A DNA stretch of 64,000 nucleotides, taken from assembly GCF_964204645.1 (NCBI RefSeq), contig NC_134027.1, positions 10,404,485 to 10,468,484 on the forward strand, in the 5' to 3' direction. The stretch comes from Tubulanus polymorphus. Taxonomy: Eukaryota; Nemertea; Palaeonemertea; Tubulaniformes; Tubulanidae. The position numbers and the translations under genes were made by a program. The notes under the pieces are model-generated. The model saw only the letters and a program-made list of their open reading frames with translations. It searched no databases and was not told where the DNA came from. Within the stretch, counting starts at the first letter, position 1, and every line of letters begins with the position of its first letter. This document shows, piece after piece, positions 13,376 to 62,340 of this stretch.

Positions 13376-13735
13376 TTTTTTACGCCGTAAAAACCGTTGC
13401 AATAATATCAATAACATTGATCCCTTTTGTGTTGGGGGTTCTACGTCATCAATATTGGCGTTTCAAAGTAACGACAATTGTGAATTGTGGCATCTATTTT
13501 GTAATCAAATTAATTTCATAACTCGTATTCTACTTTTGATGAATCTTTTAAGAGGATGACGTACACTACGTCATCATTTTAGATCGGGGCTAGACTGGTT
13601 GCCGGTCGGTTCAATTCAATTATCGATATATTAAAATCGAAAAATAACTTCATTGATCCTTGATGATATACAATTCATATCATATTATTCATGTCGGCAA
13701 TATTACGCAATATATGTGTTATTCTTCAAGGCTTC
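13376..13735 (+). repeat. CRE-bearing dispersed repeat, copy 1
   Basis: It opens GCCGTAAAAACCGTTGCAAT and has CTACGTCATCAATATTGGCG, then a second ACTACGTCATCA about 125 bp later. GGGGCTAGACTGGTTGCCGG, a run of TTCAATTCAATTATCGATAT and CTTCATTGATCCTT follow. Full-length member of the seven-copy family. Confidence 0.85.
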
Positions 13736-14299
13736 AATACAGTTTCAAGTTTTCGTTTTTCTAAATCATGCTTTATGCTGGTGTACATCTTAGCTTAGTA
13801 TGTTCACTGGTTACACATGCGGGGTAAGTTCAATTGTGATCATATGATCGAAAAAACGGAGAACGGGACAATACGTCACGGGCTATTCTTCCTCCGCTCT
13901 TACTCCACCGCAATAAATCACTTCTGGAATAATTATTCTGGAACATATTCGCTACGGGAAAAAAAGATCATCGTTGCGGAACCATTTGAGAAGCAATAAA
14001 CTTTCAAAAGTAAATTATCCAATTAATACAAACAATCTGCACCAATCGATCACCATGGAGACCGCTTCCTAAACCGCAATGACCAATTGATACATCAGGA
14101 AACAATAACATTATAATAGTCATCAGACTGAATCATAAACCAGGCCCTTTGATAGTCGCTAGACATGCATTGTTATCTCAATTAGAGTCACTGTCGTCGA
14201 AAACTACTACTCACTACTAACGTTATAGTATACCGGATAGTGTCGAGTGTATTTTCAGCGTTGAAAAAGAGAAAATATTGGTAAAATGTCAACAAAGAA

Positions 14300-14515
14300 A
14301 AATGATATTCGTGGTTATATGTGCACTACGTCATCGATATTGGTGTTAAATTAGCAATTATAATTGAGAATTTTTGAGTTTATTTTGTATTTAAGTATAT
14401 TTAATTACTCTTTTTTTAATGAATTTTGGTAATTATTTTGAGAGGATCTGCACTACGTCATCAATATAACGGGTCAATTCAATTCAATTATCGATATATT
14501 GTATCGGAAATATGT
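14300..14515 (+). repeat. CRE-bearing dispersed repeat, copy 2 (truncated)
   Basis: Both GTGCACTACGTCATC-type sites are present, about 130 bp apart, followed by TCAATTCAATTATCGATATA. The left end and the right third are missing. Confidence 0.8.
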
Positions 14516-14736
14516 ATAACCTCTAGATATTCACGCAGCTGTTTTAGTTACCGTTCATTTGAATACCGTAAAGCTCTATTTGACCTAATGAAAAATTGAA
14601 ATCCAATTTTTTGCCATTTTCGATTTACGCTAAAGAACATTATCATATCGTGCTGAACATGCTTGTCTTTCATAGAAGAGAATGTGCAAGAATCTGCGGT
14701 CCAAAACCAAAAGCACAAATTACAGTTGCTTGCCAT

Positions 14737-14961
14737 ATTCATTCATTCATTCATTCATTCATTCATTCATTCATTCATTCATTCATCCGTCCGTCCGTCC
14801 GTCCGTCCGTCCGTCCGTCCGTCCATCCATCCATCCATCCATCCATCCATCCATCCATCCATTCATTATTCATTCATTCATTCATTCATTCATTCATTCA
14901 TTCATTCATTCATTATTCATTCATTCATTCATTCATTCATTCATTCATTCATTCATTCATT
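14737..14961. repeat. Compound tetranucleotide microsatellite
   Basis: Blocks run in order (ATTC)n, (CCGT)n, (CCAT)n, (ATTC)n, each a one-base step from the next. No frame on the plus strand has a stop, which produces three overlapping spurious Ile/His/Ser/Phe frames. Confidence 0.98.
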
Positions 14962-15974
14962 TCTCTTTTCTTATTTTCTCATCGAATTTAAGCGATTCAT
15001 ATTCATTTATCACTAAGCGTATGAAAAATGATCTCTGAACTGGAGTTGCAAATATTCTACACGATTGGTCGTGGATCCGATCATGGACATTTGATCATCG
15101 TGGACATGGTAACTTGCATCAATGTGAATTTTCTTGTATTATTGTATTATTCTATGTACAAATTTTAAACACCATCTTTTTCTGTGTAGAAATTCAAAGT
15201 TATCCACATTCGTGTAAGATTTTGTGATGAATGAATATTGAATGAATTGAATTATAAACTAGTCCATAGGTCCATCCGAAAATTTGTCTCGTTATTCGAA
15301 TTAGAATATGAAAAATGTAAAATACATAACAGTCTTTTGAAGAAAAATTGAGAATTATGATGATAAAAGGAAAGCTATAGATAATGACGGAGGATATTTT
15401 GCTATAGGAACAAAAACGTGATCTCAGAGAGCGACGTACTATTCGATATCATTTGAGCTCGTATTTTTTTTCATTCGTCCATCTATCATCGTAAAACCGG
15501 GGCCATTAAGGAAACTTACACACATGACGACTTCCGTAACGAAGTCATGACGTCAATGTCGAAGAAATCCGGACTCTCGTATTAAAAAGCTTCCTCCGGG
15601 AAGTACATTACGACGAGTGAAAAGGCTCTCAATATTTTTACATCCGCAGCCGCGCATGGGACACAATATTAACGACGGAGTTGTATAATACGAAACATGA
15701 GCAATAACGTATTTATGCATCGATCACGTCATTAAAGCAGTTCGTCGTCGTCGTCGTTTCGGCGTAAAACTCAATCTGAAACGTTTTTGTTATAGAGTCG
15801 TGCGTTTTCTGTAAAATGCATTAGGCCTTGTCATAAGAGCCTTTAAGCATATCAACGTCTAATGGTAACGGTGAATTAATGACGTTTCGGACGTCAAAAT
15901 ATCAACGCGTGCGCGTTTTACGTTAACGTTAATCATATAGCCTCGATATTGATAATGATATATATTCATATTCT

Positions 15975-16241: not shown

Positions 16242-16299
16242 GTATACATAAAATCGCCTTCGGCTTACGTGTAATATGGTACGCGGATGCGCGCACGTA

Positions 16300-20100: not shown

Positions 20101-20269
20101 ATGATAGAAGTTTCATCAACGATTTAAAACGAATACTGACTAGAAAAACTGTTATGTTAAGATATACCAAACACAGGAAAAGAAATTGATCTAATTCAAT
20201 ACTATTTAATGTTCCCCTATTGGTGTGAACTCATATTCAAGCGAGAAAACTAACTAGAAAATTTATTGG

Positions 20270-20660
20270 GAAAAATAACACATATACTGTGTGATATATT
20301 GTCAACAATGAATAATATTTTGATATAGATTACTTTTATTAAGGAACAATTAAGTTATTTTGGATTTGAGTATATCGATAATGTCTGGCGAACCATCTAG
20401 CCCGAAATATTCATGACGTAGCGCATCCTCTCAAAAATTGAAATTTATCAAAAATTGAATAAGAGTTATGAAATATATCTATCACAATTGATAATAAAGT
20501 ATTCAATTTACAAAATAAACTCAAAATTGTAATTGTTATTTTGAAAGACCAAAATTGATGACGTAGTGCACATCGACTCCCACAGAACCCCTTGAAAACT
20601 CATAATAGGTATCAATGTACCGTACATAAACATTATCATAACGGCTTTTACGGCGTCAAA
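20270..20660 (-). repeat. CRE-bearing dispersed repeat, copy 3 (inverted)
   Basis: All landmarks appear in reverse order: AACAATTAAGTTATTTTGG, ATTCATGACGTAGCGCATCC, TTGATGACGTAGTGCACATC, CCACAGAACCCCTTG and AACGGCTTTTACGGCG at the far end. It is essentially full length but has lost the TTCAATTCAATT core. Confidence 0.85.
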
Positions 20661-21540
20661 AACAAATTTACGTCGCGACAACTCGACAAGGGATGTTCAA
20701 CTCTGTTGTTGGTTTATATATACTTGTAGAGAGATAAATTAGTCGAGGAAAACATACTTGAAGCAGACTCGTTGTCGCCGAGGTGAAAATGATATTACGA
20801 AAGCGTAATACAGACTGCGTTTAAGTCGATGGCGCGACCGAAATGAAAGTTTTCCGGTCCCCGTATCGATAACGCGTGAAAACCGAGACTGCGAGTTTTC
20901 ACAATACATAAAAACCGTTTCCCACAGCGCGGGGGAAAACTCCGCTAATAATCAAGAGCCCTCGAAGAAGCGATAACTATAAAAACCATCGATGGAGGGT
21001 AGTATCATCGTGGATTGCAAAAGGTAATTTCTATTGAATGGCGACAAACAATACTTCGGTAAACGTCGTTATTGGTCGACTGAAGCCGAGTGTTGAGTTT
21101 ACAGTACTCGCGGGCCACGTGTACGACTGCGCGAAAAGTGTGGGAAACTGGCTGAAACTGAAATATTCTCACAGTACTGTCAGCCATCCACCCGGCGGGC
21201 TAGATTAAACACGCCGTATTATAAAGCCGTTTCGATGTTTGATTTTCGATCGAGTGGTCGCGTTAAGTCAATGCGACTCGACGATGTCGTAAGAATCTCG
21301 CAATTATGAATGATGTCTAATTTTCTGCGTAGATTTTTCAAATAGTAAGGTTTTTTCGGATGTTTTAAATGGTTAAAAAAAGAATGAAATAAAGGAATTC
21401 TACTGTTTGTTGTGATACGGTTGATCGTCATCGCATGGCAGAATGTTGCGGCCACGCAATGTTTTTCTAAGTCAACATTCAGACTTAATAAACTCGAAAT
21501 CTCGGCTTAAATTACTGGAAATGTTTTCATTTTAACTTGA
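20661..21540. other. Intergenic, nothing recognised
   Basis: No family-like reading frame. The 20820-21230 part is richer in CpG than its surroundings, which may mark a regulatory block. Confidence 0.35.
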
Positions 21541-27599: not shown

Positions 27600-28129
27600 T
27601 CATGTGTAGTAGGACCCTAGAGGCGATGGCATATGGCCAGGGTGATGTGGAACTGGATGATTGGCGATATTATTATATATATTAGCACCGGCGGGTGACC
27701 AATAACTAGACGGTGTTGGGAAAAATCCTGGGCCGGAATTCGCCATCGATGCGTGCGCGTTTATGAAATTGAACTTGGCGTTGTGGTGGTAACTGGACAT
27801 GAACAACTCCTGTTGATACTTGTACGGACTTGTTTCCACGGTGCTGGGCTGCATCGCCTGCGCGAGTCCGGCAAAGTCAAATTTATACGCGTATCGTTTA
27901 CCGTGGACTTTCGTCATAATGTTCTTGTCGTAATAGTAACGTAGGGCGCGACTCATTTTATCGTAGTTCATGTTGGGCTTGCTTTTGCGTTCGCCCCAAC
28001 GTCTGGCCACCTCGTCCGGGTCGACCATCTTAAATTCGCCGTTAGTTCCTTCCCACGTAATACAGTTCGTGTTGCCGCTGTCGCTGAGAAGCTCCAGTAG
28101 AAACTGCCACAGTTGGATTTGCCCGCTAC
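27600..28129 (-). CDS. erg: ETS gene, exon 4 (ETS domain and stop)
   Basis: 530 nt, acceptor TCTTCCAG|GTAGC, stop TGA at 27602-27600. It carries the complete ETS domain and the C-terminal region in one exon, as the last exon of ERG, FLI1 and FEV does. The region after residue 160 is rich in Tyr, His, Asn, Ser and Pro, as in ERG activation tails. Confidence 0.96.
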
Positions 28130-31100
28130 CTGGAAGACAAAGAATACGTGCTTGACAAGTTAATGATTTAATCGGCATCTAATGCGTTCGGTAGACACGA
28201 CGAATGCTAATTTTACATCTTGTGATTGCAAAAGGCTTTTAAAGCTTCATTTGCCCGACAACGAATTGTCATTTCTTCATTTTCTTGTCATGTACGCATA
28301 GCACTGAGAACACTAGCAGGAAATATCAAATAGGAATCAGAAATTCTGGCCACACCGACGGAAGAATTCATTATCACACAGCCTACGCAAGATCGGAGGG
28401 AACTTTCTTTCATTTCCTATTTCCGGCAATGTTACGTAGTTTGTGATAATTTGGTGGCTTCCGGTCGAAAATCATTCGACGAATATTTCTGGTATCATGA
28501 TTTTAGAATGTACAAGACCAAGTTGAAGGGTTTCTCAATGTTGTGTGCAATGTCAAAGAAATATAATCATATTTACGAAATATCGCGATACGATTAAATT
28601 TAGCTCGAACTTTATCGATATTTTGCAATTTTTTTGTGAACTGTGAACAAAATTCCTGTCACACACGACCATCGATGGAACTATTCGATTGAAGAGCGCT
28701 TGTGATCGTACTTGCGCGACATCGCCTCCAGCGAGCCGTTCGTGGCTTTTATTGTGTGTACGAGTATCGTTTCGCTCGACGATGGGACTCATAATTAACC
28801 GATGGATCTGTTCTAGAGCCAATTAGCGGGCTGCGGTCGCGTTCAGTATAGATCACCGCGGCATTATTGCCCCGTTGGCGAAGTAACGATTCGGACCGTT
28901 TTGTTGTTCGGCGCAGGAGAGTAAAGCATGGCGTGATTGGCGATCGATCGATCTCTTTACGCTGAATCTCAAAGAATAATAATCAACTACAAGGGTCTGC
29001 ATTTCTTTTGTTTTGCTTTGGCGATAATTTGCTTTTTACCTCCGCACGTCACAACAAACACGGTAAGGTAACGGGCCACGAAAGCATTGTTTGGCAACAC
29101 TCTATTGCCATTAAGTTGCCTAGCAACGCCGTGTTCCGCAAAAGGGACTGGCTAAAAGGCCGGAAGTCAATGCTCGTGTGAAGTAGTTCCCCAATTGAAA
29201 CTGCTTTTACGGGTAGCACGAATACCGCGCTAATGTTGCGACTTGACATGCTACTCTTTGCTCAATAGCTCTTAGTCATGGAGATTTTTGCAAGTACGTT
29301 ATATTAAAGCTATTAGTTAAGTATATTCCGATCAAATCGTTTTTCACGCTGTTCTGCAATCCGTATGATTCAACGAGTTGAAAGTGAATAAGGACGTGCA
29401 CAACGATATATCGTCGACAATCGATCGCGAATGAAACAATGAAATAAAATTTAATATCGAATGCAAAAATGGTGCTCCAGCCACGCCGGCGTGATGGCTG
29501 ATCAAGAGCTAATGGTGTTTCACGTACTAGTACGTATATTTCATATACCAAGGTTTTTTAAATCTTGAAATGGTTATTCATTCGATTGGTAGATTCCGTT
29601 TGATTTGTTTTGATTTGGTGTCCCTTGCAAACCCACCATACCCGCCGGGAACGAAAATGGGTTTGATTTTGAAATCGGAAAATGGAGCACAGATATAGTT
29701 TTGTGATCGGCGATCGAATTTACTGAATTTTTTTTCAAAATCGAAGAAATCGATTGGTAATTTCGCTATATACCAAGGTTTATCGATCTGAGCTATTCAA
29801 CCAGTTATCATAACATAATCTAACAATAGACATCGCACTGTTAGCTTTTAAAATTGGTTTAAGGTTGTGATATGGTCGCTTTGGGACCCGTACACAACAA
29901 GAACCTGTTCCTTTGGGAATCATTTCACAGCGGTCTAGCCACCCATCTGCAATTATCGAGTCGTTCGCCATGACGTTTTCCTCTCTGCCGCATTTGTATT
30001 ATCGTCACTTTACACATCAATTGGCTTAAACCGGCTTTCGCAGGTCAATTAACCACTTGGCTTTGGTCCCATTGCGTCGAAAACATAATACGACGTTAAA
30101 TACACCGTGCTCAAAGAGTGGAATCGACTCTACGGTCGTATAGAATATCAATACGGATAATAACATCTATACAGCAGGATCCATGCGGCCCTACATACGA
30201 TAAGTCGAATTTCCCTCATCCCTCGTGAGTCGCTAACTTAGTGCTCGCTATTCCCGCTTTTTAATAACATTTCTTCAATGATACGCATAAGAAAATGAGG
30301 CTTGCGTCGGAATGTATGATGGATTTGGCCAGTAGGACGTGGTACATACCTTGAGGTCTCCACGAAGAGAACGTAGGATCCAATGCAGTCGGCTTCGATA
30401 TATTCGTTATCGGCGATGCTCCATAACCTGCGAATACAAAATAGCAAAATTTCCAACTTAATCCGTAAAAATTCTGAATAGCGGAATTCACTGTCAATTG
30501 ACGCTAAAATGAATGACAAGCTTGCGTAGATATCACCATAAAGTCACCGTGTACAAAATGCTATTTCACTGGGTTTTTATCGAACGCTGAAAAATGTTAA
30601 CGCGTTTAGGAAATCGGACGCATATTTTCGGTCATGTATACTGAATTTGATGAACATAGGGTGCAGTGATATGATATATTATGATATTATAGAATTGACC
30701 TTGAATGATTGCTGCTAATGACAAATTCAATTCTAAATGGTCCAGAACGTTTGTATTTTACTGTAGGCCCTACGAGCTAAATAATCTACGTTATACAAAT
30801 GAACTGCATTCCCGCCAAGTTTAACCAAATGTCTAAATGACTACCCGAAATAATGTAATACAAATACCATTTAGTTTCTTCTATTGTCAAATGAAACGAT
30901 ATGAGCATCAATTTCGATTCGTGCTCTCTTTTTAAATATTATTTTCCTGATTTCCCTCGGTGGTTTGCGCGATCAGATTCGAGATGATCTCGACCGTGAT
31001 TCAATTGTACACTCAGACCGAATATCGATGTTCTTCTGGCTAATAAACGTTTCCTTTCTATTAATTAGGGGCGTAATTGTGTCAGACGAAATTCAATAAA

Positions 31101-41611: not shown

Positions 41612-43365
41612 CAATAAAGAAGTTTCCAGTTTCTAGGCGTCATTTTGTGGCGGTACCTCGAGGTCCCTGTTGTTGCGATAATTTGCGCTCAATTTTAAAA
41701 CATAAGTTTAGATTGAATATCATATAGTTCTGCAGTCCCTTGCTCGACGAAATCAATTTATACACCATTTTAAAGGAAATGAAATGCAGATATTTGCTGG
41801 CGATTTTTGGAATTTATGAACGCAACAATTGAGAACAGTGACGATGTGAAACCAAGGACCGCATATCTTAACCGTGCGTAAAAGAAATCGCAATATTTAT
41901 TAATTTTAAAATATCTAAGTATCTCTTAAAGCTATATTTCCAATTTTCACAGAGGTTAAAGAGGGTTATTTGCAGTTAAAGCATGCGTTGAATTTTTAAA
42001 AATATCTTTCCTGACGACTGATCTGTACCCGCTTGAGTTTGAGATTACGCGCAAAAGGGGTCTCCCACTGCGCATCGCCATTTCACTGAACATTGAGATT
42101 TGTGAAAAGAAATCGCAAAAATAAGATTTTATACTGGTTTGTAATTATCAATATTGCTTCTGATGGTTATATATTACCTTTATTTTCGTATGGTTGAAAA
42201 TGGACTTTAAGTGTTTTGATGAATTCGAGTTTTGTAGCGTTGGGAAATTAAAGGATTTCTTGTTAGAGTGGGGACTTTCTGTGTTGGTTGCAAATGTGGC
42301 CTAGTTGAGAACCTAATTTGCGTTTCAACCGAATGTACCACTCATGGTTGGACACTAGAAAAAAAATCTAAGTTTTTATATATTTTTGAATATGCGGCGC
42401 AGCTGAAAGTTGCCGAACTGGACGTTGACCCCCTAAAACAGAATATCAAATGGGGGACAGATATGAACCCCTTTAAATATTATATTGGAATTTTATATCA
42501 GTAAGGTTTTCTGGTCGATGTTTTCCAGCAAGAAGGTTGAGATTCATTAAATTCATCGTATGATCCCAGAATGAGGGATTACCAGAGAGAGATATGTGTT
42601 AAATATGTCCTAAGCGTTTAAATTGACTGGCACATTTCACCATCGACTCTAAAACGTTTGATTTCACCGAACACAAAATCGGCGCTAGGCTGGACGGGCT
42701 GTATACGACAATTCCTCAACTGGGCCGTTCACACTTCAATAGCGGGACAAACCGGATCCCGGAACCAGATTAACGAATTGCTCCCGCCAAAATACGGTAC
42801 AAAGAAGATATGGATTATCATCTCAAAGTATCCCCATGGAAAATGTGAAGAAATCAAATTGCATTTAAAAATTTCTTGTCGCAAATCTCAATGTTCAGTG
42901 AAATTGCAATGCGCAGTGGGAGACCCCTTTTGCGCGTAATCTCAAACTCAAGCGGGTACAGATCAGTCGTCAGGAAAGATATTTTAAAAAATTCAACGCA
43001 GGCTTTAACTGCAAATAACCCTCTTTAACCTCTGTGAAAATATAGCTTTAAGAGATACTTAGATATTTTAAAATTAATAAATATTGCGATTTCTTTTACG
43101 CACGGTTAAGATATGCGGTCCTTGGTTTCACATCGTCACTGTTCTCAATTGTTGCGTTCAAAAATTCCAAGAATCGCCAGCAAATATCTGCATTTCATTT
43201 CCTTTAAAATGGTGTGTAAATTGATTTCGTCGAGCAAAGGACTGCAGAACTATATGATATTCAATCTAAACTTATGTTTTAAAAATGAGCGCAAATTATC
43301 GCAACAATGGGGACCTCGAGGGACCGCCACAAAATGGCGCCTAGAAACTGGAAACTTCTTTATTG
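41612..43365. mobile_element. 1.75-kb inverted repeat with ~500-bp arms
   Basis: Left arm 41612-42113 and right arm 42871-43365 are inverse copies with only scattered differences, roughly 97 percent identical by eye, plus a 7-bp insertion in the left arm near 41940. The outer ends read CAATAAAGAAGTTTCC. A 757-bp spacer holds two unrecognised frames (42268-42504; 42658-42939 runs into the right arm). No clear target duplication was seen. It could be a long-TIR transposon or a recent inverted duplication. Confidence 0.9.
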
Positions 43366-43524: not shown

Positions 43525-45244
43525 GGTGGACCTAAACCCAGGCACCGATGAATTCATGTGAGGTAGTTGAGTGTTTTTGGGTGTCCTCATTTGGAGATAT
43601 CAAGACATGAAATATGTTTTCCAAAGAGAGCCTCTACGCACTTAAGAGCTTGATAAATTATAGTATTTCGAATAGGAAGTTGCGGGCCGTCAGTATGGCG
43701 TTAGTACCAATCGCGTCCTCGGTTAAGGGACATTATTCGCTGGCTGCCTTTCGGTGCTTTTGCACGCGTATCTACCAAATAGAAAGAATAGAAAAAATCT
43801 ACGCCGAAATTATATATATGTATGTATATATATCCGTTCGTAAGTCAAACGTAATATGTCAAACGTAATATCTAAGTAAAGCTGAGTATCAAGTAATCCA
43901 ATACTTGCTTAATAAAACGGGCACGTGTTCCCACCCGTTACAGCCTACTAATGGGTTTCAAGTGCGCCAGATATTAACAACACCTCGTCTATGTACGTTC
44001 CATATACTTAAGTTACCGGAAGTCACGTGGAAGCATCGGACGAGTATAGCAGAAAACGGAAACAAGAAGAGATGTAGGTAGATTCCAGACTGCAAACAAG
44101 CCGGCACTCGGAGCCAGGAAACTGACTACTAAAATTCTGACATCGAGTGTCCAATTGATTGTTTTAACATTACTGACATCTTTTCGGATGCTGGAGAGGC
44201 AAGGCAAAAAGGCTCTTGATCCGCAGAGAGTAATTGACGAAAGCACGATCATCGTCGTGTGCGCATGAGCGAGCGACGCACAGCCGGAAGTGAATACTCA
44301 AACCTGGTTACGTTCGTATAATAAAACAGTACTGGAAAATTGGTTAATATGCAATAATGTGGAAATATAGTGGACGTTTTAATGAACCCGGAAAATGGTT
44401 CTTAACAATAGCACGCTAATTCAAAACCGTTAATTACAACTATTTTTCTTTGATTACTCCAAAGCGCGAGTAGCAGGCTTAGCAGGCAAGCCGTAATATT
44501 ATATAGTATAGGCGTCATGATAATTTTGGTCCAATTTCGGTTTATTGACTGTAAACTTAATTCGCTAAAGTGTAACTTGATATACGAGGTTATTTTTCAT
44601 CAGCATCAGTATTCAAATGTGGTATGAAGTTAATGTACTGTTTACTCAAGGTGCCATTGCGTGTCTTCAATGGTTACTAATCGAACACCCTATACCGCTG
44701 GTTTTATATGTTTTAGATGTCGATACGCCAGAGAACATGGCCATTAGTAACGATTATTGCGCCGACGCTATTGACTTTGCCATCCTTCTATCTATACTTA
44801 GCCAAATGCGAACGGAAGGAAACTTTCGTGTTACGGGGAAACTAGCAATTTCCATGTTCCTGAACAACGATTTTCTTCTCCTTGGTCCATCTAATGATTG
44901 TCGTTATTAGCGGGGCTTTCAGACTGACTTTTGGGGTTGAATAGACGCTAAATTGCGACCGCACGGCTACATTTCACTCGGCTAGTTAAGTCTTTATCGT
45001 TGACTGTACGGGTCATTAATTCTCGAGGTCTATTTTGCTAACAACCGCCATCTTACGAACGTATTATACGCGACGACGTGCACCCTACGGAAATATAAGT
45101 TTTCCGGTGTGACAGATCTTCACCGGACATCCTTTACCAAGTTACCAAATTGAGGCATTTCGAATCATGTTAGAGACTTATCTGATTCCAACGAGTTCGT
45201 ACGTCGGTTACAAAGATGTTTCGATCAAAACATTTCGACGCCTT
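43525..45244. other. Intergenic, nothing recognised
   Basis: Short AT repeat at 43808-43832. The frames at 44013-44252 and 44617-44910 do not resemble known proteins. Confidence 0.35.
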
Positions 45245-45600
45245 AAGACCGTAACAATAATATTTACTGATACCTAGTATGCGTTATATTAGGGGAGTCG
45301 ATGTCCACTACGTCATCAATATTGGCGTTTCAAAATAACAATTACAATTGTGTATTTTGACGTTCATTTTCTAATCAAATATATTTCATAAGCCTTATTT
45401 CATATTTGATAGATTCTAATGATACTTTTCGAGAATGTGCACCACGTCATCAATAAATCGGGGCTAGACTGGTTGCCGGTCAATTCAATTCAATAATCGA
45501 TATATTCAAATCAAAAATAACTTCATTGATCCTTAGTAGTGTATCATTTAAATTACATTATTCATTTTCGGCAATATTAAGCGAAATATTCCTAAAGGCG
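45245..45600 (+). repeat. CRE-bearing dispersed repeat, copy 4
   Basis: Full-length member. GATACCTAGTATGCGTTATA, CACTACGTCATCAATATTGG, a second CACCACGTCATCAATAAATC and GGGGCTAGACTGGTTGCCGG are all in order. Confidence 0.88.
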
Positions 45601-47470
45601 TAAATAAACTTTCAAGTTAGTTTTCTTGCTACTAATACCTTCACAATCGTCATTTTATCACCGTCAGTTCGAACAGCTTTTGACGCGTAATAACGAGGGT
45701 CGATATTGACACGGGAGGTTTTTCTGCGGTGAGAGCGAATTCACATCATCAAATCACACGGCGCGACAAAACCATCTGTTTTTATCTGACGGGCAACGCC
45801 GAGTGATTATCCAACGCACGTAAATAAACACTGTAAAATTCACGCCGTTGCGGTTTGCAATAAAACGGATTATGATCTCCTACGTTTTCTTCATAAACAC
45901 TGCAGCGAAACGTCGCTTACATCACTACATCGCACCGCGAAATCCTCAACTTTCATTTACCGAAACTTTCATAAAAAAACTGCGGCACAAAGAGATTATG
46001 CGCAGATGTCACAGACTTTTTACGCTCTGAATTTTGGAAATTTTACTTAAGAGACGTTTGCGCCAAAATGAAACGCTGTGATTACTCGGTGGTGGATCTA
46101 GAGTTTTCAAAGTGCAGGTGCTCTGCTGATCGTCCCCCAAAAAACCTGGGAAAATAAGTCCGTTTTAAGTTTTAAGTTTTAATAAGTTTTCATTCATTCT
46201 GAGTGAATATTTTAGGATCATCTCATAAGTTTAAAATATACCTTGTACTTTGTTATGTAGCGCTGGAAAACTGAAAGTAATAAGAAGGAAAGATTGTCTT
46301 GCGGGGCATTTCAATAGCAAAGCAACCCACAGCATCCTCCTGGATCCGCACTCTTTATAGTTTCTGTATTCCGTGCATAATCTTAATGGATGAATTGCTA
46401 TCAAAATTAAGTGGAATCTAATTTTGGAGATGGTTTCTTGGGCTTCTATAAGTATGATGGCCGAAAAGGGACCAGTTATTGTGCAACGTTTATCATTTGA
46501 CGCGAATAATTTCTTTAACGGGAAAATGCCCTTTTCAGCCACGATGAGCAACAAATATCAAAGTCAAATGCATCGATAAAAACTCGGAGGAACTATACAA
46601 TTCTCATCGATGTTTATTTGGGATTTCTTCGATCTGATGAACCTATACTATTCGCTATATGTTCGAGGCGTCGGGGATGCATTTATCGAGACGACGCCGC
46701 CGTCGTCATGTTTCACTGCTTGGTCGGCTTCTATTTTTCAGTGGAATCACGTTCCGTCGATGGTATATTGTCATGTAAATCATCGCTATTGCTTTTGTTT
46801 TATTAGCCAGCTCCGCTCTTTCCTGACCGGCGATTTCTCGATTTATATTCATTTCCTCAGCTGATTTCCTCGCTTCACTTTATTTTTCCTCGATCATCAA
46901 TAGCCGCGGCGATGTCCGCTCGGCGGCGTTTTCCATTCTAGTTTATATTGTTTATCCCATTTCACGAAGCCCATTGAAAGTCGCGCGAAGCACGAATTTA
47001 AAAGCCTTTCCTGGTACCTGTTTGACTTTATGATTCGAGACCATTAGTTACTTATATTTATGAAGTCGTCATATTTGCTGTTTTATTGACTTCCCTGTCG
47101 GTGTGGCATTAACTTTCATTTACGGCACCTATTAATCGCATAGCGCGGTTTAGATTGCGTTATACATCATAGATAACATGAAGTTTTCCGGGACCTAAGC
47201 CCGGTTTCCACTCAGCTTCCCCGTGTACACTGACGGCCATGTAACGACTCGGCAATCAACACTGTTGATTTAACGATAAGCTACGACAAACCACTGTAAT
47301 TACAAATATCATCGAATCGAGTTTTATTTCGTCGCGTTCGTATCGAGGATGTTTGATTCATTTTTAAACTCTAAAAAGAGCAATCCACGATGTGATTTAT
47401 AAATGAGGATCTTAGGTGATTAGCATCGTATCCACCCAATGTCGTCTGCTCCAAGAAAACCTTTTGTAAC
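45601..47470. other. Intergenic, nothing recognised
   Basis: Open frames at 45848-46030, 46231-46554 and 46610-46864 have no recognisable domains and no supporting splice context. Confidence 0.35.
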
Positions 47471-47636: not shown

Positions 47637-48597
47637 TTATTTCTGTGGAGAAAAAAATCACTCCGGCTCCAAAACAAAGTAATGTCGGCGCTTTACAAGG
47701 AGGTAAAAGCCGACATGTGTGCCTAACTAACCGGATAGGGAGTCATTTTTTTCTGAATTTAAATTCGTCATGAGCTTATAAGGGATTCTTTGTGTCCAGT
47801 CTGGCAGGTCATTTAGTTATTGTGTTCGAAGCATTCCTGGTATTTGTCATTTTTTTCTGGTGACCAACGTACAACAAGGCCATTTAACGGTCAACCGTAC
47901 GCTTAAGTTTATAATTGTCTTTCGAATTGTCCGGCCACGTGGAGGATATTATATGAAGATATCATCCGTAGAGTTCATTAAAAAATGCGAAAAGGTCACG
48001 CATTTTTTGCGTCGTCTGAAAGACGTGGCCGAACGGTCAATGCGGCTTTGTAATCGGACAACCTGGTGGGAGGAACTCTATGGAGTCTACGAATCTGAAA
48101 CACCGGTTGTCATGATGAAACTCCCTTTTTTGTTTGGGGCTCTCTCAAAAGGGTTTTTTTACAAGGTGTCGTATAGTTACTGATTAAATTGAATAATTTT
48201 CTGAAATGAACGTCCAATAACTGTCGACGTTGATGCCTACTTTCTCAGGCCCGTGCCGAGCTTTTTAAGGAGCATTTCTATTTCAAAGGGCACTTTTTCG
48301 CCACGAAAAGGGGAAATTTCCTATCAAAAAAGGACAGATCTTGAATACGATCAGATAACCTAAGCTTAAACAACGCCTCATTTATGATTTTTAAGAAAAT
48401 CTAAAATCGGATGTTTCATTTGCAACTTTCAGTGATATTGTATTTAAGTACGCGTTTTACTGACTTAAACAGCGTTATTTTGGATTTAGAGTGGGCCAAC
48501 TTCCCGGGGCAAATACGATCTTTTCTCGATACTATTACTTTGGCCCGAGAATATCAAAGTATTCATTAATGCATTAGCATAGTTATGCAACGAGACG
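47637..48597. other. Intergenic, nothing recognised
   Basis: The open frame 47860-48183 (107 codons, alternative start) has no recognised domain. No repeats found. Confidence 0.35.
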
Positions 48598-48778
48598 AAT
48601 AGTACTTTATAGGTTAACTAGTTTATCAGGCACACGTGCTTTCGCTACTAGTGTATAGCAGCTTCATCAGGTGAATGAGTTAATAAATACTCAATCCTCA
48701 ATCAGCTGATTAGGCTACTGTACACTAGTAGCGAAAGCTCGTGCGTCAATAAACTAGTTAACCTATAAAGTACTATTC
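48598..48778. mobile_element. Foldback of two divergent retroelement-like tails, copy A
   Basis: The ~60-bp arms share AGTACTTTATAGGTTAACTA and CTTTCGCTACTAGTGTA with their inverses. Read outward, each arm gives CTGATGA (or CTGATTA), a GCTGCTA...TAGTAGC stem, GAAA and then AATAAACTAGTTAACC. The flank after the right arm (GGTGTTAACACCACTCCTCC) recurs in copy B. Confidence 0.85.
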
Positions 48779-49626
48779 ATCTATTCCACGCCAGGTGTTA
48801 ACACCACTCCTCCGCGAATCTTTCAAAATATATAGACCTAGCGGACACAAACTTTTAGGTTTACTATAGAGAGTTTGCAAATTTGTCGATGGTTTAATGG
48901 GCCCATATAATACTGCTCATAAACTGATTTTCTATGAAATGAATATCGTATTGAATTGAAATAACGAGCTGGCCGATTCGAAATTGAGTATAGGCAACAA
49001 TGGAAATTGGCTGCAAACATTTCATGGCCATCGTTGTATGTAATATTACTTAAATTCTGCATATATTCACCGTATCCATTGCCATCTCAATTAATATAGG
49101 AAAAGCGTTACGCGAGCGCCTAAATTATATTCAAAACACGACATCGGTAGCGCAGGCCATAGAGACACCGAAAGATGCAACGACGATCGCGCGCGGGCGT
49201 TCTGCCCAGATCACTGGTCCACGCGAGGTGTGCAGATCAATCCGATTGATAGAAACATCTCAAATGACCGGGTATTATTTCACTGCATTAAGCAACGACA
49301 ATATGAATTTAATTAGACCGCGCCGTTTGTATTCATACCGAAATGCGATACGCTCCGTCACCGTTAATTATATTCCACGGTAATATTGCGGTTCTAAATT
49401 ATAGTTCGTGAAAGCGAATTATTATATTGAGGCGGCCTCTGTGCGTCTTTATTAGTCAACAAGCGGCGGCCAGATTTTCGAGCATATGTTATTCTTGGGA
49501 GCATGGTAATTTCGTTGCCGGCGTCTAAACGCAGGCCCGTGGCTTAGCCGTGAAAGTCATTGAAATACATATGTTTGTAACTATTGATAAAACGCTATAT
49601 CCGTGCTATGAGGATAACCTAGAAAA

Positions 49627-49785: not shown

Positions 49786-50704
49786 TACTCTCTACAACTA
49801 TTTCTATGTTTATCATTCTAATGACAGAAATAATGTAATGATTTTATCGTTCTTAGATAAAACTCTTCAACAACTAGAATATCAAAATTTTCACAATTCT
49901 TATACCAAAAATACATGTACTTTTTGCCTTATACCTATTGATAACGTTTAATGTTTAATGATGTATTTATGTCTTGAAATCCTAGCGAATGCATTCTTTT
50001 AAAGGCGATGCAGATTATATGGCTACGTCATAGTTTGATTGTTATTTTGAAACACGCGTAGGCCGCTGCAAAATCTTTTGAATATTGATGAAGATTTTGC
50101 GTACTAGAGAGAACGCATTGTTTCCTTCGCGAAGCCGAAATTAATTAACAAAGTTAACATTCGCCGTAAACGGTGCGTGAAATGGCCCCGATTTGCTGCG
50201 TGATAAGTTAAAATTCGAGGAAATGATGTTTTACTGTAAACAAAAGCGCCGTGCTACACGGTAACCTATCAAAATGGCCAATCAGCGCCGGTGCCAGGGC
50301 ATTATTAACCATTATGATTAATGAGCAACGGTTTTATATCGTGGCGCGTCGTAAATTCGAGAGAAAGTTAAAAGAATAATGGATTTTCTTCTGCGAACCG
50401 TTTCTTTTTCGATTACAAAGCGATGACAATGATGGATCTTGTTTTGTTGACTCGGTGTGTAGCCGGCGAAAAGGAAGACGAGCATGTCACGCGCGTCTAG
50501 ACTGTTTATCTTTCATCTGAGGAATATTTTCGCGCGATCGCCGTCATTGATTCGTAACGTATACGATAATTTGCAATAAAACAGTATCGCGTTTCGTCGG
50601 TCTTTAACGGTTCGATCTTTGGTCGGTGATTAGGCGTTGACGTGGCCGAAATTGACGTAGCGAGAAATTCTCTTCTCGTTATAGTGTATCAGGCTTTCTT
50701 TTAC
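49786..50704. other. Intergenic, nothing recognised
   Basis: A short piece at 50022-50055 (GCTACGTCAT, GTTATTTTGAAAC) resembles scrambled parts of the CRE-bearing repeat. No gene. Confidence 0.35.
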
Positions 50705-51065
50705 ATCCTAAAAACCGTTACAATATTGTTTGTATACATTGATACCTAGTATGCGTTATTTAAAGACTTCTGTCTGGGTCGATGTGCACTACGTCATCAA
50801 TATTGGCGTTTCAAAATAACAATTAAAATAAGAATGCGAATTTTGGCGTTTATTTTGAATTTAATTATATTTCATAACTCTTAATTTTGATTGATTTTGA
50901 TAATCATTTTTGAGAGGATGTGCGCTACGTCATCAATATATCAGGGCTAGACTGGTTGCCGGTCAATTCAATTCAATCATCAATATATTCAAATCCAAAA
51001 TAACTTTATTGTTCCTTAATAATATACAATTCATATCATATTATCATTCATTGTTGACAATGTTT
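50705..51065 (+). repeat. CRE-bearing dispersed repeat, copy 5
   Basis: Full-length member: CTAAAAACCGTTACAATATT, GTGCACTACGTCATCAATAT, a second GTGCGCTACGTCATCAATAT 140-150 bp on, and GGGCTAGACTGGTTGCCGG. One of the best-preserved copies. Confidence 0.9.
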
Positions 51066-51616
51066 TTTTTTGACTGCTTAATTTTGTTCTTGAGTTTCTA
51101 GATCAAAAATTGAGCGGAGGATTTTCATTAGTTATACAGAAAGCGAGAAAAGCGAATCATTGAGCATTGAAATATTGTCTATTACCGAGAAAAGCTATCC
51201 AGGATTCCAAACTTAATTGGGTATATCCAGACGACAATGAATAGCCTAAACATTTGACTTAAGAATTTAATGTATTAATTTACACACAATTTTGACCACA
51301 GTATAGGATAGGTTCTGTGACATCTTTACATCGCTATCTTCTTCGTCATCGTTGTGTCACATCACCTGAATAAGACCGACCGCGAAATTCTAAGCACACA
51401 CACGAAACAGGGAAAAAGGATTAACAAAAGCATGTCACCGTCGGTCCGCATCACTGTTTTGCAATTCACGATTCTACGTGGCTCGTATAGCTCAAGTTTG
51501 AGGTATATAGCCAGACGATAGGCCGAGAAAAAAAGTAAAAAAATAAATTCTATGTTTTATACCGTTCGTTGATATATCGTTTCATGATCATGATGGAAAT
51601 AGAATATGAAATAAAA
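51066..51616. other. Intergenic, nothing recognised
   Basis: AT-rich, no open frame with family resemblance and no clear repeat. Confidence 0.35.
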
Positions 51617-51852: not shown

Positions 51853-52939
51853 CTCAAATAGAAATAGAGCCAGCAACAGACACTGGCTATCTGACTATTA
51901 TCAATTCTTCCAGATTATTCCCTTTTTTTAATCTTTCACAAAAGGTTTCACTCATTATTATGTACGGTAAACTATATTGGGAAAAAACTCCTCGTCGACA
52001 ATGAATTTGCTATTGTGCTTCCGAGATGACTAAATGGTTCATGTAATGGACACCTTTCCAAACCACCGAAACCGAAGTCGCTTCGGTGACACTGAATAAA
52101 TTTGGGTGTATTAATGTTTCAATGCGGTGTGCCATGTTTTTATAATATATCTGGCTGCCGGCGTAATTCACGGGTTAACCGAGTCTTTTGTCGGTGGAAA
52201 TTGAGATAACAACACCTGCCCTTTCTTCATATGTTTTCGTACGTAAAAACGCAAATTTCCACCCGAAATTGCCGAGCCTAGGAGGCATTCGGGGGTTCGC
52301 GTATTCAAACGCGTGTGAGCGACAGTCGACGAATTCCCAGACTAACAATTAAAAAGCCACGCGAGTCAAAAAATTAAGATATCGCAATATTAAAACACCT
52401 CGAGCCTTCTGATCGGATATCGCTTAATGTTCTAGCACTCAAACGAAATGAGCCTTTGCCAACCGCCTAGTTACCACGCGTGACGACTATTGGGGTTTTT
52501 TTATGAAGTGTCAATCGATTTCGTCAGCGACAAAGGTGGGTCTAATTTTGCGTATTGTAACCTTTGGGCTTTGATGTGTGATGTGCGATGATTGTAAAAA
52601 TTTGCGAAACAAAACCGCTTCATTGACGCATCAGTTTTTATCGGCAATAATGGAGAAACCGTGAAATCCGATTCACCGAGATAAGTGCTCGAACGGACCG
52701 CAAACAATGGCAGGAATTTACAGCGGAATCCGACAAAATGAACTAAAATGAACTCGATCCATTCTCTTCTTCTTTTTCGCGTCAATGGTGAATTATGATG
52801 TCATTATTCAGGTGGAACGGCATCTCATCTCTTACGAGCTAAATCAATATTTATCAGGGAATGAAGAATATTTACCGTTAATATCTAAAATCGTTGAAAG
52901 ATTTTAAGTACACTGCGCCAAAACTGTCAATAGAACGGT
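51853..52939. other. Intergenic, nothing recognised
   Basis: Minus-strand frame 52501-52785 is uninformative. No repeat identified. Confidence 0.35.
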
Positions 52940-53175
52940 ACGAATATAGTACTTAATAGGTTAACTATAGTTTATTTGTCGCGCGAGCTTTCGCTACCAG
53001 TGTATAGTAGTTTCATGAGGCTAATAAGTAAAGTCAATCAAGTAACAGCAGTCACTTTGCCTATGAATGCTGTTGTTTCTCCATTGACTTAACTCATTTA
53101 CTTGATGAAGCTACTATGCACTAGTAGCAAAAGCTCGTGCGTCAAATAACCTAGTTAACCTATAAAGTACTCTAT
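52940..53175. mobile_element. Foldback of divergent tails, copy B
   Basis: Same arms as copy A with a longer centre that has its own weak symmetry (CAACAGCATTC, inverse of 53066-53076). The right arm reads TTGATGAAGCTACTATGCAC, TAGTAGCAAAAGCTCGTGCG, AAATAACC. The flank AGGTTTACACCGCTCCTC matches copy A. Confidence 0.82.
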
Positions 53176-53235
53176 TCGTCTCGTTCTATGCATTATATAC
53201 CAGGTTTACACCGCTCCTCTACGGATCTCCAAAAT

Positions 53236-54244
53236 ATCGAGGAATTAGAACTTTCTACCACATTTCTAATCACATTGTTCATTCGATCGGTTCGATGATG
53301 TCCGCTAAGACGTGGACTAAGCGGAGTTCTTCGTCATAAAAAAAGATGCGGGTTTGATGTGATCTTAGCCTCGGCATTGTTTGCAAAACATCGATACAAT
53401 GAATAGATTATTACTGACCAGGGGCTATCGCATGACACTGACCATTAACCACGCGTGTTCGCTCTGCGACGGGAACGGTTAGGCCCATTAGCCTAGTGTT
53501 TTTTCCTACCAGAATGACCGTCAACGGATAATCAGTCCCGCCATGATGCCCACTGGTCGACGGACACGTGTGCCGCTTTGCCGTCGCAATCAACCTGGCC
53601 GTTCCTCGCGGGAGGCTACCGTTATAAGTGCGTCTTTAGTGCGTCTTTATGTTGACTATGTTAATGACACGATGGCCGGTTGCTATGTCCCTCTAGTTCT
53701 GAACATTGTCTCTGCTCTGGGCTCTACCCCGTGCTGTGTGAGCATATTTTTCAGCGAACCTATGATCACACTTCGGGGAGACTATCATAATCATTTTTGC
53801 TGCGGGTGGTATTTTGGACCCATGCTGACCGGTACGATAGACGTCGCGGCGAGCGAGGTTTTACCAGTCTTGTTAATTTTTCGAGTATTGTATTTTAGTA
53901 CATTGTATCGAAGTTATAGGCTATGGTTCCCCCGGTTTCATTTGTTATCCTAACAATCTCCTATATCATTATCTGCGAGTCTTTATTGTTTTTTTTTTGG
54001 GACGGTCGTCAATCCTTTAATGCACGGACTGATTAAAATGTGGTTATACGTTGTGTTCGGGTACTTGCTTCGCTAAACCCAGCTTATACGGGCGATAGAT
54101 CATACGGATAAAGTTTAACCACCGATCCCCAATCAGTCGCTCGCTGGTTGAAGGAAAATTGTTTGAATGAACCGGAACCGAAATTTCCAATTACGTACTT
54201 CGCTTTAAATAAAAAAGTATATAAAATTCGACCGTTCAACTATA
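53236..54244. other. Intergenic with an unrecognised open frame
   Basis: The plus-strand frame 53543-53953 (136 codons, hydrophobic middle part) has no recognised domain, and a minus-strand frame overlaps its start. Not called as a gene. Confidence 0.3.
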
Positions 54245-54365: not shown

Positions 54366-55429
54366 ACAACATGCCCTATCTTAAGATCAAAAGGTTTAAC
54401 CACTGAATTCAGCAACCTGATAAAAAACCGACAAAAATGATCCGGTCGCACGATCGGTTTCGTAGATGATTGTTAATGATCTATATATGCCTTTCGATAT
54501 TTTCTAGTTGCTGTTAAAAACATTCAAAACCGCTCGTATCCCAGTAACAAAGAACTCGTTACCGTATAACAGCGTATCGACCGACAGTGTTTACCGAATC
54601 GTGTTGAGGATGAAGAAAGGCCGTCTTCCTTCCCTCCATTTCCTTCGACGGGGCAACGGATATAATAACACTGAGGTGCAGAGAAAACTAGCGAAGTGTC
54701 TTCTGTTTTGCTTCCATTGCCCCGAGCATGCCATCATCCTCTCCATTTGAGTTATTATGTTTATTTAATCTTCGCTGCCGTTTTCGTGTATAACTTAATA
54801 TTCCACTTTGATGGCAATACGTTGTCGCGGCGCATTCACGAAAGAGACGCTTTTTTCGGTCGATTATTTTTGCCAGGTTTCCAATCGAATTCACCAGTGC
54901 TTTCACTTCAGAATACTGCGCGCATAATTTTGATCTATGTTAAACTAACGGACGAGTCTCATACGTAGTCGATCTAGGATTTCTCTCGCTTTGAAGAGTC
55001 GAAACGAAAATAAAAAGCCGTCAGAATTTCCCGTTTTCTGCAGTGCCGCCGGCAGGTAGATCAGTGTGTCCTGTGTAGCGTATGCGCACTTCCTTAGCAC
55101 ACATTTCCATTTATTATGACTTGAAATGAGGACCGTGGAAGCGGTAAAAGTCGAACATCACACCAACATGTCCGTAAATTTTCCTCCTGGGCTTTTGTGA
55201 TGAACTGATTATTAGTTTTCGCGGATTGTAATGTTAGCGGCGGTATATTGCAGTGATAAACGATCTGATTAAGTCTACCGATCGGATACCTTTTACCACG
55301 GGCTCTTAAAAACTGCTTCTAAAACAGGTCTAGCATTTCATTCGGGTATCAGGAAGGTTTACTTCTATACATTTGGGATATCCAGACCGGTGACCATTAA
55401 GAAGTAGAATTGTGTATTAGCGTAAATAC
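54366..55429. other. Intergenic, nothing recognised
   Basis: No domain-like frame. A CpG-rich piece at 55035-55085. Confidence 0.35.
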
Positions 55430-55577
55430 AACGAGATGTATAGTATTTTCTAGCTTAACTAGTTTTTGACGCACGAGCTTTCGCTACTAGTGTGTAGCAG
55501 CTTCGAAACTACCATACACTAGTAGTGAAAGCTCGTGCGTCAAATAAACTAGTTAATCTATAAAGTATTTTACGTCT
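55430..55577. mobile_element. Foldback of divergent tails, copy C
   Basis: Arms match copies A and B (ACTAGTTTTTGACGCACGAG, TTTCGCTACTAGTGTGTAGC and inverses), but the centre is reduced to about 10 bp, leaving a nearly continuous hairpin. Confidence 0.85.
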
Positions 55578-55698
55578 CATTGTATCTATTTTTCACCAGG
55601 TTAACACGGCTTCACGAATCTATCAAAGGTCTAATGGTAGCGACGAAGTAATGACGAAGTCAACACGGGAAAAATGTGACAAGATTATGGGGCTACAC

Positions 55699-55805: not shown

Positions 55806-55837
55806 AGAATACAAATATATACAACTTTTCCGTTAGA

Positions 55838-58600: not shown

Positions 58601-60049
58601 TACGATAAGACCATTTAAAACCACATGAAACCGTGATATAAACGTTTGTAGTTTTATTAATCTTTCATACGTTTTATCAATTCTTATTTCCATTTGCGTT
58701 ATTGTATACGTCAAAAGTCGTTCGTTCCTCGATATTCGACCGCGTAAATGGACACGTTAATTTGCATATACGGCAATGGTGACACATCAACCGTGCACGA
58801 CATGTACGTGCGACGATCGGCGCCGTATTATGACATAATCGAATATGAGCTTTACACATCTCATAACTTCATCAGTAGTTAATTACGGCTTGTGCTGATC
58901 GGTCGACATCTTTCATCGAATCATCAACGGCGCTTTTGTGTGCGACGCGATCCTATCGTTCTTTCGTCGAGTGCGACGTCTTCATCGCAGACGTTTATCC
59001 GGTTGCAGATTCAGAGGCAAATTTTTAGGAAAAAGAATGCCCCAAAATGCAATTAGCGAAATCCTATTTCTTTTTGTAGCTTTGTATATTTCTTGTGTCA
59101 TGTTGTTTCTGCCCCTTTTTATCTTTATTTCATTGAAAATAATGTTACCTTGATTGCGATAAATAGAAAAACTCAAACTAAAATAGGATCTTAGAGGCAG
59201 CCATTAAAAATCGACCAGATAATCTCCACCACTCTTCTCTTACTGAACGATATTACTGAAAAATTAGTAAAACATTCGAAATATTTTGGTAGCGATGGCA
59301 AAATATTGACAATCCGCAAGAAAGCCGTCTGGAGCCCAAGCTACTTGATCGTTAAACTCCGTCAAAGATGGTGGCGGGCGCACGCTGAAACTCTGTTGCA
59401 GTGCCAAGTGTATTTAATGAGAGTCGCTCCCGATGCAGCGCACTGAAAATCACCATCTCCTTCGTACAACAATAAAAAGACAATCGGCCGCGCTAGCCGC
59501 GCTTTTAATAGCCGCATTAATGATTTCAAAGCTTTTGTATTCTCGCGAGAGAAAAGCTTCGACGCGCTTTCGAATAGCCTTAACAACGTGATAATAGTGC
59601 TCGGGTGACAATAAGCACGAGTCCCATCAATAAACCCGGCAATATTAGCTCGCCGGATAGTTCGAATATTAGATTCAGTGATTCAGTGGATTCGACGACG
59701 GCTTAATTCACCATTATTTACCGTTGACTTGATCGACGAAGGAAGGCCTTAAATGAGACAAAGACGATTAGATAATGCATTTTGATCATATCTTTTTGCT
59801 GATGATTTTGTCGTGGGCAAGATCGATAGATTAAATGCTGCGATGGGTGATCAGATCGTGGGAAAATTAGTGCGTGGCTTCATAAAAAACCGCTCGCAGA
59901 TATGATAAAACGAATATTTGATTTGAAATTTGTAAAAAAAGAAACAAAAATTGAAATTGGCCAGAATCAATTACTCTGAAATACTTATCGTAGAATCTTG
60001 GAGTAGGTGCCACAGATGAAACGAGATATGTCCCAATTAGGTTTTCAAT
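58601..60049. other. Intergenic, nothing recognised
   Basis: No domain-like frame. A short palindrome near 59540-59560 (TCTCGCGAGA). Confidence 0.35.
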
Positions 60050-60275
60050 TAGGTGAGTCGATGTGCACTACGTCATCAATATTGGCGTTGCGAAATAACA
60101 ATGACAATTTTGAATATTTGCGTTTATTTTCTAATCAAATAATTTCATGACTTTTATTTTCTATTTATGAATTTTCATGTCGTTCTGATAATGCTTATCG
60201 GATGAGTTGATGTACATCACGTCAACAATATTGGGGCTAGACTGGCTGCCGGTCAATATATCATTTTGAAGAAGT
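60050..60275 (+). repeat. CRE-bearing dispersed repeat, copy 6 (truncated)
   Basis: GTCGATGTGCACTACGTCAT, ATTGGCGTTGCGAAATAACA, a second decayed ACATCACGTCAACAATATTG and GGGGCTAGACTGGCTGCCGG. Both ends are lost. Confidence 0.82.
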
Positions 60276-61984
60276 TTTTGGAAGATTGAACCAATATATT
60301 CGTGAATTTATATCAGATAATTGAGAAGTCCCGTTCTCTTCAAGTGTAAACATCGGTTATATCGCGATTCCGCTCGTCTTGTCGGCATCACAGACTGGAT
60401 TATAGATTGCGTTGGTTTTCCCATAGAGTTGTCACACACTTTTCACATTACGGAGCATTCTCTTACCTGTCGTCGAGCATCGCGTACAGTTGATTTTCCC
60501 TCGTTAGTTATTGATGAAGTCGCGGTGTCGCTCGCTCGCGAACCTCGGTCAGACAACAAACGCGCATGCGCCGTCGATGCGGTAAGCACGCGCCACGCGC
60601 CCGATCGCGGAGTGGGAACATTTTCCCAGCTTCGGCGGCGTCGTGAAATCCGTACGTGCCGGTCGCACGTTTTGCGCCGAGTCGAACGCGGTTGAATTTC
60701 ATTCAAAACTTATCCGACTCTCGAGTTGACGAATAAATCAATGTTATGCATTTGTGGTCGAAACGTGACGATACGTGTAAATCGATTCATTATTTGTTGT
60801 CCGATGCCAAACACGGCATCGCTGACAATTGGAAACAATGAACGTGTAATAATGAAATATACGTACATCTCTTTAATACATCGGAACGGACTAATTTGAT
60901 ATTTAAAAAATCGGCCATTACGCGACGACCCCGGTGTTTTTAACGTTGGGTTTTATTTGTGATATCTTAAGAACACACCTGTGAGCTTCCAGCGTCGGCC
61001 GCGATATCCGGATTTGTATAGTCGAGCGTCAATCGAATTTGAATAAATCTACAATTACCGCATAGTTTGTATTTGATTTATCGACGGACACAATGCATTT
61101 TCATCGATAGCTTTGCTAAACGCGGGCGGCGTCGACTTCGGCCGTGCGTATTGATCTAAAATATTAGGGTATCTTGGTCATCATTCGGTACGACGATTCT
61201 GGAGCTGGACAGAGCGGACACGTGATCCGACAAAGCCCGCTATGGCACAAAGACACCGATATTTTGAAAGCTTGTTTTCGGTTATGAATCGGTTCTATTT
61301 GGATTAGGGGGCAATAAATCGCTTACTCGAGTCAAACCTGCAGTTAAGCTTTGCCGAGATGAATAGCGATATCGCACGTGTTCCGCAATGTCCAGCATTA
61401 ATCTCGGCCTAATCCGAATTCTTCGCCCAGATTGATTTCTTCTATTGAGACGGTCACGAGCCCACGGCTAACTGGACACACGCTCCACATTCAAAGCCAT
61501 TCCGGACAGCCGCTCGCCGGATTTGGAACTCATCGAGTCTTGTTTTGTCTGCGCTGACATAATCTTCTATTTTTCACGTTCGATCCGTAATAGTCATTTG
61601 TTATCTGCGGTGTTATTAATTTGCTCAATTACCCACAATTAATTTATAATGCAAATCCAGGCATCTCCGTACGAACGGGTCACCGAGAATAAATAGCCTC
61701 CTTATAGCTCGAGACGTGTATTTAAGAATTTGCTATAAACACGGAATGACAATGCCGCCGGCGTTATCTAGGCCTCACGCCGGCATTGAAAATGAAAATG
61801 TGTAAGAAGTTTTCAAAATGCTGAAGCCTATTTCTACTCGACACACTGATCGATAAGGCACATTGTCTATTTGGACCCATGAAATTTGGCCCTTGAGTGT
61901 GTTCGTTTCGAATGTTTTAACTCAAGATCATGATTTTAACACTCAACTGTGAAAGTTCTGCACATACAATGGTGTTTTCTATAG
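60276..61984. other. Intergenic, CpG-rich in parts
   Basis: The segment 60460-60700 is CpG-rich with overlapping Arg-rich frames on both strands, the pattern expected of a noncoding CpG-rich block. A strong hairpin lies at 61749-61786 (AATGCCGCCGGCGT/ACGCCGGCATT). Confidence 0.4.
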
Positions 61985-62340
61985 TTTTCGTTACAATAAT
62001 GTTCTTATATGCTGATACCTAGCATGCGTTATATAAGGGGTTCTGTGTGAGTCGAAGTGCACTACGTCATCAATATTGGCGTTTTAAAATAACATTTACA
62101 ATGGTGAATTTTGGCGTGAACTATTATTCTATACATTTGATAAATTTTGATAATCATTTTTGATAGGATGTGCACTAGGTCATCAACATATCAGGGCTAG
62201 ACTGGTGCCGGTCAATTCAATACAATTATCGATATATTCGAATTCGAATTAACTTTATTGACCATTAATATCATATAATCTATTTCGTATAATCTATTGT
62301 CGTCAATGTTAAGCAATATATGTGTTATTTTTTCAATGAA
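61985..62340 (+). repeat. CRE-bearing dispersed repeat, copy 7
   Basis: GTTACAATAATGTTCTTATA, GATACCTAGCATGCGTTATA, GTGCACTACGTCATCAATAT, then a second GTGCACTAGGTCATCAACAT in which CGT has become GGT, and GGGCTAGACTGGTGCCGG. Full length. Confidence 0.88.

Follow-up and report, generated by a model that had tools for sequence, protein, structure and literature searches.

The 64-kb stretch of the Tubulanus polymorphus genome analyzed here (the window; C3:10404485-10468484 of a 267.8-Mb genome in 77 contigs) carries seven copies of a ~424-bp repeat, which is probably an old rolling-circle transposon of Helentron type, both non-coding and non-autonomous, i.e., a Helentron-associated non-autonomous element (HINE), the class of Drosophila DINE-1. 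A sequence-only reading of the window had presented the repeat as a seven-copy, ~350-bp unit with paired ACGTCA sites whose layout matched no named family known to it. Its end and internal patterns match hundreds of places, making it a genome-wide family instead, and its layout fits that of a described class, the HINEs. Membership in this class is provisional, given a subterminal inverted repeat (subTIR) of only 8 bp and the fact that a partner with the same ends was not found in the stretches read.

All seven window copies lie where they had been placed, one of them inverted, and a scan of the window with the family consensus finds no eighth. As for the reported order of parts, the doubled TACGTCAT site (sites 1 and 2 below) is real, but the exact words quoted are rarer than described; GATACCTAGTATGCGTTATA is exact in one window copy only. 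The copies are as follows, with percentages giving identity of aligned bases to the consensus.

13376..13759, plus strand: copy W13, consensus 1-418, 88.6%; sites at 13442 and 13567
14252..14582, plus strand: copy W14, degraded and incomplete; reliable over 14319-14500 (blastn E 1.3e-49); sites at 14327 and 14454
20244..20662, minus strand: copy W20, inverted, consensus 1-420, 90.5%; sites at 20558 and 20413
45233..45628, plus strand: copy W45, consensus 2-422, 88.6%; site 1 at 45309, site 2 as ACGTCA only at 45444
50699..51133, plus strand: copy W50, with a damaged 3′ end; reliable over 50709-51064 (blastn E 6e-136); sites at 50790 and 50926
60036..60362, plus strand: copy W60, partial; reliable part 60053-60257 (consensus scan); site 1 at 60069, ACGTCA at 60219
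61989..62378, plus strand: copy W62, consensus 20-424, 89.7%; site 1 at 62063, site 2 lost (AGGTCA)

Aligned bases of the window copies are 82.0-90.5% identical to the family consensus. Since only 0.1-0.3 copies would be expected in a 64-kb window from the copy numbers given below, the seven form a local cluster. In the alignment of 37 genomic and the seven window copies, homology starts and stops abruptly at common ends, and the aligned element runs for ~424 bp from TTTTTGACGCCGTAAAAACCG to GTTAGTTTTCTTGTT, which replaces the earlier unit length. The left end of the consensus, TTTTTGACGCC, lies 17 bp outside what had been taken as the ACCGTTACAAT end, and the consensus extends ~134 bp beyond TTCAATTCAATTATCGATAT.

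The family comprises roughly 500-1,200 old copies. When the genome was searched with the first window copy, 40 of 1198 candidates were scored, and every one of the 40 was a match; 37 of these 40 places were fetched as a first sample, the remaining three being window copies. Later copies came from pattern matches and from 26 new places found in a search with the 3′ half. Genome-wide, the 5′ end pattern matched 363 places, the 3′ end pattern 305, and the internal pattern 650, with no match to any of the reversed-pattern controls. These patterns (5′, 3′, internal) recovered 12, 25, and 33 of 40 copies selected by their 3′ half; for the 37 genomic copies of the first sample the counts were 16, 12, and 31. 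Dividing matches by recovery rates yields six estimates from ~490 to 1,210 copies, which are rough because similarity guided the choice of both sets. In 85 copies, the median base identity to the consensus is 89.7%, i.e., a median divergence of ~10%, from which we take the family to be old. We found little linkage among 39 variable columns that would define subfamilies (best p 1.7e-4 over 719 pairs). A sibling family sharing the 5′ 30-mer of locus L101 was also considered and rejected: among 40 of 659 candidates scored, only one other place, ~7 kb away, matched over the whole stretch, which suggests a local duplication at L101 rather than a family. A further dispersed repeat (ACACCGCAGTGCGGTGTAGACGCACT...GGGTTAA) lies in or beside copies L025, L080, L086, and L112.

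The case for a HINE rests on the ends of the element, on its target sites, and on Helentron-type genes in the genome. The outermost bases are not mutually inverted, as they would be in terminal inverted repeats (TIRs). A perfect 8-bp subTIR, TTGACGCC/GGCGTCAA, starts at position 4, 3 nt from the left end, and lies 26 nt from the right end, and a palindrome (AACTT-TC-AAGTT) sits between the 3′ subTIR and the right end. On the left, GACGCC is preceded by a run of T's (each of the five adjacent positions is T in 86-99%; n = 73 of 85 copies) whose length varies between copies; on the right, CTTG is followed by TT (82-84%; 50 of 85 copies). Beyond the T-run and the TT, the flanks show no strong base preference. 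The family thus inserts in T-rich sequence, with T's at each edge and a variable number of them. HINEs are described as leaving the target unmodified and inserting at T-rich targets with variable T number; their subTIRs lie 2-4 nt inside the 5′ end, and they have a 3′ palindrome (PMC4067079, PMC7492417).

Target-site duplications (TSDs), which the sequence-only reading had proposed to look for, were not clear in the 63 of 111 copies with both ends recognizable: none of the 63 had a shared edge word of at least 6 nt, and words of at least 4 nt were common to both flanks in 10, compared with 6.8 expected from mismatched pairs. A second test, on 42 of 85 copies, agrees; a duplication of T or TT would be compatible with both results. 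Empty sites were sought by searching the genome with the joined flanks of 26 copies (14 and then 12). The 14 yielded no uninterrupted relatives (40 of 117 candidates scored), and 11 of the other 12 gave no match across the junction (25 of 25 candidates scored). The exception, copy L104, sits within another dispersed repeat, three places of which match across its junction at 75-76% identity. Four or five T's occupy the junction in three of four fetched relatives, and no duplicated word shows in the alignment, consistent with the target-site pattern of HINEs (PMC4067079). Because the stretch to the right of the junction varies in length, the L104 insertion point is located only approximately. 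The repeat that hosts L104 (seen in its flanks and in L152-L155) reads GAATTGAGTC.AAACGTCA...CAATTGAATTA...CACTTGTCTATGGAAACCAA.

An ordinary TIR-type miniature inverted-repeat transposable element (MITE) or a short interspersed element (SINE), its target duplications since decayed, would also be short, abundant, and non-coding, and the repeat does end in A5 when read backwards. We would be surprised to see this explanation borne out: at ~10% divergence, none of the 63 copies shares an edge word of at least 6 nt; the ends are not inverted; a fixed TSD was not seen; and the L104 relatives lack a duplicated word. For a SINE in particular, Rfam gave no match at gathering score, and there is no tRNA in the window. 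Two further origins were rejected. A canonical Helitron has 5′ TC, a 3′ hairpin followed by CTRR, and insertion between A and T, from which the ends TTTTTGACGCC and TTTTCTTGT differ; and a tandem array is not indicated, since the stretches that follow the two sites are unrelated (score 18; null mean 19.4). Conserved structure was not evident over the whole element (z-scores of −1.4 as RNA and −1.9 as DNA).

Candidate sources of the mobilizing proteins are present in the genome. Helitron_like_N has 58 matches, 57 of them above cut-off, in two score groups; one locus of the lower-score group has Helitron_like_N, a PIF1 helicase, and an Exo_endo_phos endonuclease together in one 1830-codon open frame, the Helentron combination. 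Among the matches listed, four places were candidates for an autonomous element bracketed by the repeat's ends, and all were rejected as separate or degraded copies or as one copy with inserts. By eye, and again among the matches listed, Rep matches cluster apart from copies of the repeat: contig C1 has no listed pattern match at ~11.6-20.4 Mb, where Rep matches sit (12.8-18.1 Mb), although the separation is not absolute, an internal-pattern match at C8:6.36 Mb lying among Rep matches.

Several results weigh against the HINE assignment. The subTIR is 8 bp long, compared with 11-15 bp described, 8 bp being equaled or exceeded in 168 of 5000 shuffles, and the short 3′ palindrome folds only weakly. 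Edge words of at least 3 nt are somewhat commoner than expected (30 versus 22.9; 63 copies), and a TSD consisting only of T or TT is indistinguishable from insertion between two T's. Candidate empty sites were obtained for one of 26 copies, at only 75-76% identity, and the L104 junction varies in length among its relatives, one of the four being without the T-run. Finally, neither 30 Rep loci, read with 1.5 kb to either side, nor the upstream stretches of eight Rep loci showed the repeat's ends; the termini of the Rep elements may fall outside these stretches. At two near-identical loci (L146 and L148), a 33-bp stretch on the upstream side of Rep does match part of the 3′ end, but it more probably derives from an ordinary copy, as a fragment lying beside another Helitron. 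These loci were rejected as a partner sharing the 3′ end, the adjoining DNA being a dispersed repeat that ends in a hairpin and CTAGT and is a canonical Helitron by its end. This other family (L148:1650-1923; hairpin then CTAGT by eye, with internal tandem units) occurs at 37 further places among 40 candidates scored of 140.

The absence of a clear TSD, the shortness of the subTIR, and the partner not found in the stretches read would also suit a non-autonomous element of another TSD-free class, whether Crypton-like, Spy-like, or undescribed. We think this unlikely: HINEs are described with T-run and TT edges and with asymmetric ends that bear subterminal inverted repeats. Spy-type elements insert between AAA and TTT, and the composition of the flanks does not fit such a target.

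For a HINE, we infer mobilization by Helentron proteins, as well as the exact insertion point and the role of the doubled site. A Helentron Rep/helicase/endonuclease whose gene lies, or once lay, elsewhere in the genome would have recognized the terminal signals, namely, the T-run plus TTGACGCC on the left and GGCGTCAA, the short palindrome, and TTTTCTTGT on the right. Copying would have produced a single strand that entered between two T's and left the target unduplicated; the element would have reached at least several hundred places before decaying. The source element would already have contained the 29-bp internal direct repeat in which the doubled ACGTCA site lies.

The sequence-only reading had described that site as containing the core bound by CREB/ATF factors; its TACGTCAT word resembles a CREB/ATF half site. 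The site belongs to a 29-bp internal direct repeat whose two consensus units differ at two bases. The window holds 15 occurrences of TACGTCAT on either strand, 12 of them within the seven copies; site 1 is intact in all seven and site 2 in four, while ACGTCA is present at both sites in six, the 62.0-kb copy having AGGTCA at site 2. Genome-wide, both sites are recognizable in 69 of 111 copies (at most 4 mismatches per 20-mer), spaced 112-150 bp apart in 62 of the 69 (full range, 31-176). Decay was measured on a 40-copy unbiased set, comprising the 26 new and 14 previously collected places, all chosen through the 3′ half only; it includes two window copies, one of which is the query itself. In pairwise alignment, site 1 matches the consensus at 94.1%, site 2 at 91.1%, and the rest of the 5′ half at 87.2%, with bootstrap differences from the rest of 3.8-9.6 points for site 1 and 1.3-6.5 for site 2, excluding zero for both. 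Multiple alignment instead puts site 1 at 92.3% and site 2 at 88.1%, against 84.9% over the 5′ half as a whole. Site 1 thus decays clearly more slowly than the rest of the element, and site 2 slightly so; decay as fast as the rest was the outcome that the sequence-only reading had named as refuting its proposal, and site 1 does not show it. By rank among 8-mers, site 1 falls in the top 1-3% and site 2 in the top 17-25%. The internal blocks TGAATTTT and AAAATAAC are about equally conserved, as is GGGCTAGACTGGTTGCCGG, although the search query included that block. Taken together, CpG positions show little extra decay (87.5% versus 89.0%).

The simplest account of the slower decay is that the active element depended on the site, perhaps as a promoter or protein-binding site; any effect on host genes would then be incidental. 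A host-maintained CREB/ATF-responsive enhancer, under which selection would preserve, at many loci, the paired bZIP sites that the element dispersed, is compatible with a transposon origin and would account for the mismatch rate of site 1, about half that of the rest, and for its retention throughout the window. We consider it quite improbable, judging from the letters of the copies: both 8-mers are intact in only 28 of 111 copies and ACGTCA is kept at both sites in 40, other blocks are conserved about as well, site 2 is unexceptional by rank, and the spacing of the pair is variable. Because the pair is intact in so few copies and other blocks rank alike, constraint on the source element suffices without host selection.

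The neighboring ETS gene is marked by one exon, outside the repeat.

27600..28178, minus strand: open reading frame, ETS-domain exon of the neighboring gene (Pfam PF00178, 1.4e-36)

Four copies had been reported upstream of this gene, and those at 45-62 kb do lie on the 5′ side of the ETS-domain exon. No match to a PNT domain was found within the window, and no regulatory relation between repeat and gene can be claimed. The window also holds a compound tetranucleotide microsatellite (CATT/CCGT/CCAT; 14737-14961) ~150 bp from copy W14; an inverted repeat at 41612-43365 (arms of ~500 nt, 96% complementary, with a ~760-nt spacer) that looks young; and a separate foldback family, TACTTTATAGGTTAACTAGTTT...GACGCACGAGCTTTCGCTACTAGTGT plus its inverse, at 48570-48790, 52934-53240, and 55413-55611. 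By eye, we take the foldback family to resemble a hammerhead-type core; Rfam gave no match at gathering score.

By itself the repeat is an ordinary genome component. What had appeared to be a local cis-regulatory oddity becomes a transposon family with defined ends, and the handing out of bZIP sites by a transposon becomes testable with hundreds of natural replicates. We regard as very improbable the stronger proposal that the element dispersed hundreds of paired CREB/ATF-type bZIP sites, a subset of which, including the ETS cluster of seven, would be kept as cyclic AMP- or stress-responsive enhancers; if true, this would be a Helentron-driven regulatory network. Our search found no literature joining Helitrons with CREB or bZIP binding sites in transposable elements.

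Three known systems bear comparison. ISX of Drosophila miranda is Helitron-related. Like the repeat, ISX is a mobile element that disperses the binding site of a regulatory protein, a putative one in the case of the repeat; ISX is recent and functionally tested, whereas our repeat is old (PMC4384637). With HINE/DINE-1 elements, the repeat shares a non-coding nature, high copy number, no clear TSD, a T-rich target with variable T's, and, in weaker form, a subTIR near the 5′ end and a 3′-end palindrome; it differs in its subTIR length (8 bp versus 12-15) and in the distance of the 3′ subTIR from the end (26 nt versus 38-60 in the mite) (PMC4067079). It differs further in that its consensus is without a visible microsatellite, its partner was not found in the stretches read, and it contains two copies of a 29-bp repeat whose core is ACGTCA. 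Cg_HINE of Crassostrea gigas has satellite-like tandem arrays, whereas the repeat here is not a tandem array; the two have in common left and right modules, internal repeated DNA, T-rich insertion, and no TSD (PMC7492417).

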